Positions 35,065 through 38,179 of a DNA stretch of 64,000 nucleotides are shown in pieces (the stretch's first letter is position 1; every line of letters begins with the position of its first letter). A program made the translations under genes and the position numbers. The stretch lies in assembly GCF_003688415.1 (NCBI RefSeq), contig NZ_REFJ01000002.1, forward strand, positions 186,001-250,000, written 5' to 3'. The DNA comes from Umboniibacter marinipuniceus (lineage in GTDB: Bacteria; Pseudomonadota; Gammaproteobacteria; Pseudomonadales; DSM-25080). The notes beneath the pieces are model-generated. The model ran no database searches, was not told the origin of the DNA, and saw nothing but the letters and a program-made list of their open reading frames with translations.

Positions 35065-35737
35065 AGTTATGTTGTCAGCCCAAGGCATCAGTAAATCCTA
35101 TCTTCAAGGTCAGAATGAATTACCCATTCTCCGTGATTTGGCAATGACGGTTCATGAAGGTGAGATGGTGGCGATTGTTGGCAAATCCGGAAGTGGTAAA
35201 TCAACCTTGCTGAATTTGCTAGCAGGCCTCGATCACCCAGACTCAGGTGAAGTCACGTTGGCGGACTGTTGTTGGCAGAAGACAGGCGAGCGAGAGCGTG
35301 ATCGTGTGCGTAACCATTCACTTGGTTTCGTCTATCAATTTCACCACCTTCTGCCCGAGTTTAGTGCGCTGGAAAATGTGGCTATGCCACTTCGTATCGC
35401 TGGCATGAGCAGCGCGAAGGCGCGTGTTGTCGCGCTAGATTTGCTGGCTAAAGTCGGCCTTTCGGACCGCGCAAAGCATCGCCCGAACCAGCTTTCTGGA
35501 GGTGAAAGACAGCGTGTTGCCATTGCGCGGGGGCTAGCCAATAGCCCCGCAGTGGTACTGATGGACGAACCAACCGGTAACTTGGATGTGGAAACAGCAT
35601 CTGAAGTTCGCGATCTGATCAAGACGCTGAGTCGTTCAGCTTCTACAGCGTTTGTGATCGTCACCCACGATCCCAGCTTTGCCGAGTACGCCGATAGGGT
35701 ACTTACGCTTACCAACGGCAAACTAGAGGACCACTAA
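35057..35737 (+). CDS. lolD: Lipoprotein-releasing ABC transporter ATPase LolD
   Basis: 226 residues. Walker A GKSGSGKST, the ABC signature LSGGERQRVAIARGLA, Walker B VVLMDEPTGNLD and the switch histidine in VTHD are all present. LQGQNELPILRDL and FVYQFHHLLPEFSALEN resemble LolD rather than other MacB-type ATPases. Overlaps lolC by 8 bases and shares its final base with lolE. Confidence 0.95.
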   Translation: MNRVMLSAQGISKSYLQGQNELPILRDLAMTVHEGEMVAIVGKSGSGKSTLLNLLAGLDHPDSGEVTLADCCWQKTGERERDRVRNHSLGFVYQFHHLLPEFSALENVAMPLRIAGMSSAKARVVALDLLAKVGLSDRAKHRPNQLSGGERQRVAIARGLANSPAVVLMDEPTGNLDVETASEVRDLIKTLSRSASTAFVIVTHDPSFAEYADRVLTLTNGKLEDH

Positions 35738-36960
35738 TGCGGTTTAGTTTTGATGTGGGTCAGCGTTACTCAAAAGTTAGCCAACAGGGCTCTCTAATTG
35801 GATTTATTTCCAGCCTCGCAGGCAAGGGGCTCGCGCTGTCGGTAGCTATTTTAGTGGTGGTGATTGCCGTCATTGATGGTTTTGAACGCGAACTAGAAGA
35901 GCGTATCTTAAACTTAGTACCCCATGTCGAATTAAGTCGTTACGGCGGTATTGAGGAGTGGCAGCAAACTATTGAGGTATTGGAGGCGCTTCCCGAGGTT
36001 ACTTCGGCTGCACCGTATATTAATCAATCGGTATTGTTTAAGAGTGGCACGACGGTTGCGCCGGGTATGCTCTCCGCGGTTGATCTTGAGTTGGAGGCGC
36101 AGTTTAGCCCTTTGGCTAATTTTGTGGAAGCCGGCGATCTTTCAGCGTTGAGTGATGGCGAATCAATTGTATTGGGAGCAGGAATTGCCGAGAAACTTGA
36201 TCTCTCGGTAGGGCAGTTATTTACGCTAATGATTCCGGGCGATTCCGCCACTACTCAGCCCACTATCCGACGGCTTAAGGTGGTTGCGATTATTGCGTCA
36301 GGCACAGAGCTCGATCAGGTGCTGGCAATAACTACGATTGATTCCGCTCAAGCTTGGCTGAAGCGAAGTCGTGTTGACGGTATTAAGCTTAAGCTGACCG
36401 ATCTTTATCGCGCTGATATAACCGGGCTACTGATTTCAGAAAGCCTTGGGGGCGGTTATACATCGAAAAGCTGGCAGCGCCAATTCCGCCAGCTTTCGTT
36501 CGCCATCCAGACCTCAAAACAGATGATTAACTTACTGCTGTTACTGATTATTCTGGCGGCCGTTTTTAATGTTGTGACAACCTTGACGATGGTGGTAATT
36601 GAGAAAAAATCTGATATTGCCATCCTCAGGTCAATGGGCGCTTCTCGCTTTGCGATCATGCGAATCTTTGTGAGTCAGGGCTTTATGGTTGGCGTTTACG
36701 CCGCGTTAAAGGGAATTTTGGCAGGTATTCTGGTGTGCCTAGTGCTACCTTGGTTAGGTGAGCTAATTGAGCTGTTTAGCGGCGTAACACTGCTAAGCTC
36801 CGACGTTTACCCCGTTGATTTCATCCCAGTATTCTTAAAAGTCGAGACCATTGCCTTGGTGGCGGGGGTGGCTATTTGTGCGAGCTCGTTGGTGTCCGTT
36901 TTTCCCGCTTGGCGTGCGTCACGGGTAGATCCGGCGAAGGTTTTGCAGTTAGAGATCTAA
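35737..36960 (+). CDS. lolE: Lipoprotein-releasing ABC transporter permease LolE
   Basis: 407 residues with the same topology as LolC. DGFERELEERILNLVPHVEL and SAAPYINQSVLF resemble E. coli LolE. The stop TAA at 36958-36960 is followed ten bases later by a 21-bp tandem array that stays open in the lolE frame for 85 codons, so stop readthrough would add seven copies of a hydrophobic L-V/A-V-T-I-T-P heptad. I keep the annotated end at the TAA. Confidence 0.93.
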   Translation: MRFSFDVGQRYSKVSQQGSLIGFISSLAGKGLALSVAILVVVIAVIDGFERELEERILNLVPHVELSRYGGIEEWQQTIEVLEALPEVTSAAPYINQSVLFKSGTTVAPGMLSAVDLELEAQFSPLANFVEAGDLSALSDGESIVLGAGIAEKLDLSVGQLFTLMIPGDSATTQPTIRRLKVVAIIASGTELDQVLAITTIDSAQAWLKRSRVDGIKLKLTDLYRADITGLLISESLGGGYTSKSWQRQFRQLSFAIQTSKQMINLLLLLIILAAVFNVVTTLTMVVIEKKSDIAILRSMGASRFAIMRIFVSQGFMVGVYAALKGILAGILVCLVLPWLGELIELFSGVTLLSSDVYPVDFIPVFLKVETIALVAGVAICASSLVSVFPAWRASRVDPAKVLQLEI

Positions 36961-36970
36961 TTGCTTGCTT

Positions 36971-37117
36971 CGCTAGTTGTTACGATTACGCCGCTAGTTG
37001 TTACGATTACGCCGCTAGTTGTTACGATTACGCCGCTAGTTGTTACGATTACGCCGCTAGCTGTTACGATTACGCCGCTAGCTGTTACGATTACGCCGCT
37101 AGTTGTTACGATTACGT
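36971..37117. repeat. Seven-copy 21-bp tandem repeat (minisatellite)
   Basis: Seven direct head-to-tail units start at 36971, 36992, 37013, 37034, 37055, 37076 and 37097. The shared core is CTAGTTGTTACGATTACG. Units 5 and 6 carry CTAGC instead of CTAGT and unit 7 ends in T instead of C; otherwise they are identical. The array fills the convergent gap between lolE and the DUF2062 gene, and unit 7 encodes that gene's last residues (RNRNN-stop). Near-identity suggests recent expansion. The unit is two helical turns and a multiple of three. Confidence 0.97.
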
Positions 37118-37614
37118 CGCTTCTGCCAGGCGTTGACTACGTGAAATCGCCAAAATCCTCGTGCCACAAACCAGCCAATACCACCAAAGAAGAGTCCACA
37201 ACTGACGCAGCCAACTAAGAATGGAAGCCACGAAGTGGCAAGCTGATCGCCAAGCCAAACAAGAGTCAGTTCTTCGGGCATTGGGATAGGTGGTTGTCCA
37301 AGTAGTAGAAGTCCAACGCGATAGGCCCCATAGAAGAGGATGGGCATTGTAAGGGGGTTGCTAATCCACACCAATACCACAGACAGTGCAATATTGGCAC
37401 GAAATAACACGGCGAGTGCCGCCGCGGCAAGCATCTGAAATGGTATGGGGAGGAAGCTACAGAATATGCCAATAAAGACAGCTCGTGCCACGCAACGACG
37501 ATTTAAGTGCCATAGGCTGCCGTCGGCCAACCAATGTTGAATCCAAGCCAGCCCTTTATGCTCACGAATATACTGAGGGTCAGGCATGATCTTTTTAAAG
37601 AAGTTTTTGGCCAT
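37099..37614 (-). CDS. DUF2062 membrane protein
   Basis: 171 residues with about three to four hydrophobic segments (51-72, 75-92, 95-110, 135-155). HLNRRCVARAVFIGIFCSFLPIPFQM and SNPLTMPILFYGAYRVGLLLLG blocks are typical of DUF2062 (partial quotes). Function is unknown; a gene of this type sits near lolCDE in pseudomonads. The C-terminal five residues and stop come from the last unit of the 21-bp repeat array. Confidence 0.85.
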   Translation of the reverse strand: MAKNFFKKIMPDPQYIREHKGLAWIQHWLADGSLWHLNRRCVARAVFIGIFCSFLPIPFQMLAAAALAVLFRANIALSVVLVWISNPLTMPILFYGAYRVGLLLLGQPPIPMPEELTLVWLGDQLATSWLPFLVGCVSCGLFFGGIGWFVARGFWRFHVVNAWQKRRNRNN

Positions 37615-37723
37615 TTAAGTCTTTGGTTTCAAATTAGTTGTTTAATTATGTGCCCGTTGGGTCGAAAAATCTATTAAAACGCGGGGAAAGCGATTTAATA
37701 ATGAGCTACTAACTAAAAACCGT

Positions 37724-38179
37724 TCAAATAATACCCAATTCTAGGGCGGCAGCCATTGATTCGCCTAATTCTCTAGCCGAAATTAGGTGGCTATCTTGCG
37801 GTTCTCCTTTAACGAGGAGCGTGTCACCAATTTGCCGATAGCGGTAGCCGGTGAGAATACGTTGGAGCGCCTTCTCGGCGCCGGTTCCATCGTTACCAGC
37901 GCTAATAATTAACTGAAACGGTAGTGCAAGCTGAAGCGCTTCCACTTCATAATAAGTCTGATCAAAGAAGTGTTTTATTGCGCCTGACATTGTGCCGAAG
38001 TTCTCAGGCGTCGCAATGACCAGTGCCGAGGCGTTCATTAAGTCTTCTGGTCCCCCTTGAAGCGCTTCAACTACCCGAACTTTAACGCCCGATACGCGTT
38101 CGGCACCTTCAATGAAGGCATCGCATAATTGTTGCGTATTGCCAGTCTTACTGTGCTTAACAAGTAGGAGGGTCTTCAT
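37724..38179 (-). CDS. Flavodoxin-like FMN-binding protein
   Basis: 151 residues from ATG 38179; two or three upstream ATGs (to 38206) are possible and none has a clear ribosome binding site. VKHSKTGNTQQL near the start is the FMN phosphate loop of flavodoxin folds, and TPENFGTMSGAIKHFFDQTYY is the typical flavin-ring loop. Members are NAD(P)H-dependent FMN reductases or WrbA-like proteins; the substrate is unknown. Its start codon overlaps the start codon of divergent comEC. Confidence 0.8.
   Translation of the reverse strand: MKTLLLVKHSKTGNTQQLCDAFIEGAERVSGVKVRVVEALQGGPEDLMNASALVIATPENFGTMSGAIKHFFDQTYYEVEALQLALPFQLIISAGNDGTGAEKALQRILTGYRYRQIGDTLLVKGEPQDSHLISARELGESMAAALELGII

Follow-up and report, generated by a model that had tools for sequence, protein, structure and literature searches.

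Within the analysed stretch of DNA (the window, 64,000 nucleotides of the genome G000), two genes converge on a short tandem array. The plus-strand gene was named lolE in the original prediction, and the name fits the FtsX and MacB_PCD domains found in its product. The features of the locus are:

35737..36960, plus strand: lolE (FtsX / MacB_PCD permease), an open reading frame with PF02687 and PF12704 and a TAA stop 10 bp before the array
36970..36974, plus strand: outer left TCGCT, half of a putative seeding direct repeat, from the sequence
36971..37117, no strand given: tandem array of seven 21-bp units, CGCTAGTTGTTACGATTACGC as read on the plus strand (TRF, unit listing, and 7 genome matches that all lie here)
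37055..37096, no strand given: two adjacent units with a common T-to-C variant, from the unit listing
37097..37117, minus strand: presumed ancestral unit, holding the last codons (RNRNN) and the TAG stop (37099-37101) of the DUF2062 gene (open reading frame, translation, stop position in G002)
37099..37614, minus strand: DUF2062 gene, converging on lolE, an open reading frame with PF09835 (E=1.2e-43)
37117..37121, plus strand: second TCGCT, at the outer right edge, the partner of 36970..36974 in the putative seeding direct repeat, from the sequence

TRF places the array at 36971-37121 with a period of 21, 7.2 copies, 97% matches and a score of 281; the other three TRF rows in the 64,000-nt window score 43-46 with about two copies each. 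Together with the unit listing this confirms seven nearly identical head-to-tail units, as originally predicted. The start had been set at 36961, which is 10 bases too early, as 36961-36970, between the lolE stop and the first unit, is not repeat. Four units are identical, two neighbours carry one T-to-C change and were probably copied together, and the last one (37097-37117) ends in a C-to-T change and is followed by a partial copy, CGCT, at 37118-37121. An assembly error, in the copy number or in the array as a whole, was considered. At 147-151 bp the array may come close to a short read in length, and the longest four of the sampled non-coding arrays in the genome measure 151, 155, 157 and 169 bp, so that assembly might have collapsed or dropped longer ones. 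Against this, the variant units follow an ordered pattern and arrays with other units stand at many loci inside large contigs, and we find this explanation very unlikely as a whole; while the existence of the array is unlikely to be an artefact, its copy number is less certain.

A search of the 2.69-Mb genome for the unit, allowing up to 3 mismatches, gave 7 matches, which lie without exception in the array and run in one direction. A dispersed repeat family of the REP/BIME or MIRU type was rejected since the matches are confined to the array. The MIRU-VNTR loci of mycobacteria are likewise tandem repeats at gene borders, but MIRUs form one dispersed family, whereas the present unit occurs at one locus only. 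A search of one-genome-per-species contigs, a set which may omit records of the window's own genome, gave 9 matches to a 17-base core of the unit, one per organism. These organisms are unrelated and include Maribacter, two Pseudoalteromonas and metagenome-assembled genomes of Saprospiraceae, Clostridiales and Lachnospiraceae; with a single match in each, we took them as chance matches and not as relatives of the array. Bacterial minisatellites are recognized by a unit of about 10-60 bp, at least 4 head-to-tail copies, high identity, and absence or a single copy at the site in relatives. Here a 21-bp unit is repeated 7.2 times at 97% matches, and 2 of 2 other genomes of the genus have no array.

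The last unit does encode the final residues and the stop of the minus-strand DUF2062 gene, as the original prediction held, and each added unit brings its own TAG in that frame. The copy number alters neither protein, since lolE ends ahead of the array and the DUF2062 frame ends before it reaches any added unit. On the plus strand, the predicted open frame past the lolE TAA is present for 85 codons (36961-37218), but the last of its seven predicted L-V/A-V-T-I-T-P heptads reads LVVTITS and has no terminal P. This frame is open because the 7-codon unit has no stop in it; three of the six frames of the unit are open, and with a 21-bp unit any frame that is open in one copy stays open through the whole array. 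The proposal that read-through or mutation of the lolE stop appends a repeat peptide to LolE draws on these 85 codons. It is unsupported, as the 85-aa frame has no Pfam match at E up to 0.001 and G002 has a further in-frame stop one codon after the lolE stop, and we consider such an extension extremely improbable.

The only other genomes of the family that we compared, G001 and G002, belong to the same genus. In both of them lolE and the DUF2062 gene converge and the array is absent. The DUF2062 protein of G002 is 85% identical to that of the window over residues 1-168, and its stop is equally far from the last Trp (WQKRRNRNN* at the first TAG in the window, WKNRHKNRK* in G002); the tail in G001 is two residues longer, so the stop position is the same only in G002. 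Most simply, this match with G002 means that the array started from the unit at the DUF2062 end, with six more added past the stop. Further, TCGCT stands at both outer edges, 147 bp apart, while CCGCT stands at 6 of 6 inner junctions, which is the pattern expected if slippage between 5-bp repeats began the array. An ancestor with one copy would then have carried a 5-bp direct repeat 21 bp apart. The growth from the DUF2062 3' end that had been suggested is thus supported both by the stop position in the array-free G002 and by the 5-bp direct repeat that brackets the array.

Such a start has precedents. In the model of Haber and Louis (1998), as given in the review PMC6947457, flanking repeats of 5-10 bp start minisatellites via slippage or unequal crossing-over, and PMC2884548 attributes to replication slippage those variable segments in three bacterial species that have repeats of 5 bp or more on their flanks. 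Counting against slippage, the agreement of the two TCGCT sequences is one 5-bp coincidence, taken from one array among 36. By eye, no TCGCT pair was found at the corresponding place in G002. The lolE-DUF2062 gap of G002 has a small duplication of its own, of 13 bp of the lolE tail (TRF 13 bp x 2.6). A survey of DUF2062 3' ends at 30 loci (L017-L046, the best 30 of 93 genomes with a match) gave a clear two-copy duplication in 3 of the 29 other loci (L018, L022 and L040; only at L040 does lolE not directly adjoin the DUF2062 gene), which indicates at most a mild tendency of these gene ends to duplicate.

Collectively, our preferred reading, to which we give a probability of about 85%, is that the array is a locally born minisatellite without selected function. 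We infer that the 21-bp DUF2062 tail (the last codons and TAG) would once have stood between two copies of TCGCT and been duplicated by replication strand slippage, and that further rounds, by slippage or by unequal exchange among the lengthened repeats, would have raised the number to seven. Its place in a tail-to-tail gap, where it changes neither protein, would explain why the array survives. Variation in copy number within the species is plausible. The array is one of many unrelated arrays in the species.

These other arrays were counted in 1.262 Mb of G000 (the window, 400 kb more of the same contig and the whole contig C1 of 798 kb) at a TRF score of at least 50, at least 3 copies and a period of up to 60; genes were called as open frames scored by codon use, and the gene contexts are approximate. 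The 43 arrays, including the one between lolE and DUF2062, comprise 7 inside predicted genes and 36 that are non-coding. Convergent gaps hold 17 of the latter, codirectional gaps 16 and divergent gaps 3, and the respective shares of intergenic bases are 0.20, 0.54 and 0.26. By one-sided binomial tests on the 36 arrays, the surplus in convergent gaps has p=2e-4 and the shortage in divergent ones p=0.008. Because the convergent pattern was first noticed in the earlier sample, contig C1 provides a fairer test, and there 10 of 21 non-coding arrays are convergent at a share of 0.21 (p=0.007). All three divergent arrays lie in the second half of C1 and none in the first 864 kb sampled. Half of the 24 arrays of C1, coding ones included, cluster at 587-608 kb and 658-675 kb (L176, L177, L179, L180).

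The units of the 36 arrays are unrelated to each other. The commonest 5-mer occurs in 5 of them and the shuffled maximum averages 4.7, so a shared motif was rejected as nothing exceeds the shuffles. This bears on the possibility that the units are protein-binding sites on one helical face, serving as a roadblock or anchor. The 21-bp period is about two helical turns, from which it had been argued that any bound protein would line up on one face; we found no evidence for this, and the two turns are arithmetic only. At up to 3 mismatches the genome has no copy of the unit outside the array, and periods vary widely among the other non-coding arrays (5 to 30 bp), which have no common 5-mer beyond shuffles. 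A role in protein binding is therefore highly improbable.

The convergent bias might instead mean that something at gene ends is selected. Selection could keep the array for a role in the 3' untranslated RNA of lolE, DUF2062 or both, where it would terminate transcription from either side, buffer colliding transcripts or stabilise the mRNA; its tail-to-tail location, shared with the other convergent arrays, would fit this. It would also fit that no intrinsic terminator (a G+C-rich hairpin followed by a T run) was found in the lolE-DUF2062 gap, the two overlapping terminator-like sites that we detected being both inside the DUF2062 gene, and that long unit-to-unit hairpins are possible in plus-strand RNA. 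Compared with dinucleotide shuffles, the array folds slightly better on the plus strand (z -1.39, 20 of 200 as good), which counts against the absence of function; the minus strand has z +2.17. However, the folding does not stand out from that of seven-copy arrays of a shuffled unit, which were at least as stable in 67 of 300 cases on the plus strand and 292 of 300 on the minus strand, and Rfam gave no match up to E=1 in 36600-37800. Function through RNA structure was rejected as the folding, the shuffled-unit control and Rfam were all null. Nor are terminator-like sites from our own scan scarcer in the array-bearing convergent gaps of up to 1000 bp (5 of 16, vs 16 of 148 without arrays), although this is a weak test since the lengths differ, with a median of 250 bp with arrays (142 bp minus the array) and 78.5 bp without. 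Both sister genomes also manage without the array. The folding, Rfam and terminator results may be compatible with an influence on the decay of mRNA or on colliding transcripts, but we judge selection in the 3' untranslated RNA to be unlikely.

The sampled half of the genome holds an excess of arrays compared with related genomes. Twelve genomes of the same order, picked for long contigs and sampled at 100 kb each, gave 6 non-coding arrays in 1.2 Mb with none convergent, and G002 gave 5 in 400 kb with one convergent. Non-coding arrays with a TRF score of at least 50 thus number 28.5 per Mb in G000, 5.0 in the order sample and 12.5 in G002; with a score of at least 80, the array densities are 23.0, 0.8 and 5.0 per Mb. 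Against the order sample the excess reaches p=3e-6 (score 50) and p=6e-8 (score 80), and against G002 it is weaker, with p=0.048 and p=0.011, in tests that assume independent arrays while some cluster. Nine of the 36 arrays (8 loci) have both flanks in the part of G002 that was compared, the remaining 27 being unplaceable, and in none of the 9 cases does G002 have an array of that unit. Therefore, these 9 arrays either arose after the split from G002 or have been lost there.

To see whether loss of a repair gene could account for the excess, we searched the three genomes of the genus and the twelve of the order for mutS, polA, recJ, exonuclease I and SbcD. All 15 genomes have mutS and polA over the cut-off. 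RecJ is over it in 12, including G000 and G002, with G038 and G074 just under and a partial match in G001; the C-terminal domain of exonuclease I is over it in 14, G000 and G002 included, with G067 lacking it and a match in G001 that is only partial. SbcD reaches the cut-off in 7 of 15 genomes and in none of the three of the genus. Its absence alone was rejected as the cause of the excess, because the five SbcD-negative comparison genomes have few arrays (0, 0, 0, 0 and 1 non-coding arrays per 100 kb in G069, G067, G047, G016 and G011, respectively). The convergent bias may reflect tolerance only, there being no promoter to damage, or slippage where transcripts meet. It is conceivable, but rather doubtful, that the species is array-prone, with a recent genome-wide burst of unrelated 5-30-bp arrays that is concentrated at converging 3' ends, is rarer in the sister and stems from a defect in slippage suppression or from instability at the meeting points of convergent transcripts. 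If so, the lolE-DUF2062 array would be one readout of that state.

Prokaryote satellites have been surveyed (PMC6749651), and the array resembles the bacterial minisatellites or VNTR of that survey in its unit of at least 10 bp, its at least 4 head-to-tail copies and its intergenic location. The long-repeat satellites of Clostridium difficile also have units that are unique and unrelated between arrays, as in G000, whereas the lean towards convergent gaps is not reported for bacteria in the accessible part of that survey. The chloroplast of Heterosigma akashiwo offers a likeness in placement, according to PMC2410131, with tandem repeats that have a period of about 18-20 bp and 1.9-7.5 copies and with many of its repeats in spacers between two 3' ends. 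It differs in being a plastid and in that its repeats are mixed with inverted repeats. Its repeats are also common to two strains at seventeen sites, while G000 shares 0 of 9 with its sister species, a wider comparison than between strains. The same paper also refers to inverted repeats that lie between convergent 3' ends in bacteria. Among the titles and openings of abstracts listed by a limited search of papers under open licences, none dealt with bacterial tandem arrays that prefer convergent gaps.

Taken by itself, the array is an ordinary minisatellite and a possible typing marker, little else, and its interest is mainly as one of a species-level excess. Together, the arrays suggest a species where short tandem arrays arise often and are densest where two gene ends meet. 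Such a species would offer a natural setting in which to ask whether repeats gather in convergent gaps by tolerance or by transcription-driven slippage. Hence it is the number and placing of the arrays that deserve a second look.

Other repeats were observed in the same genome. A 10-bp unit is repeated 4.7 times at L055:19384-19430 (G000:C2:179384-179430), inside a histidine-kinase frame on the minus strand (L055:19211-19981; HATPase_c, E=1.5e-17). As a change of one 10-bp unit would shift this frame, the gene may be a candidate phase-variable kinase. At L055:3004-3181, L056:12902-13078 and L061:9316-9720, units of 94-211 bp that look like tRNA genes by eye stand in tandem in about two near-identical copies. 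Two coding repeats have units that are multiples of three, one of 18/54 bp in an RNase E/G-like gene (L053:7532-7926) and one of 12 bp in a DUF4194 gene (L054:17710-17923).
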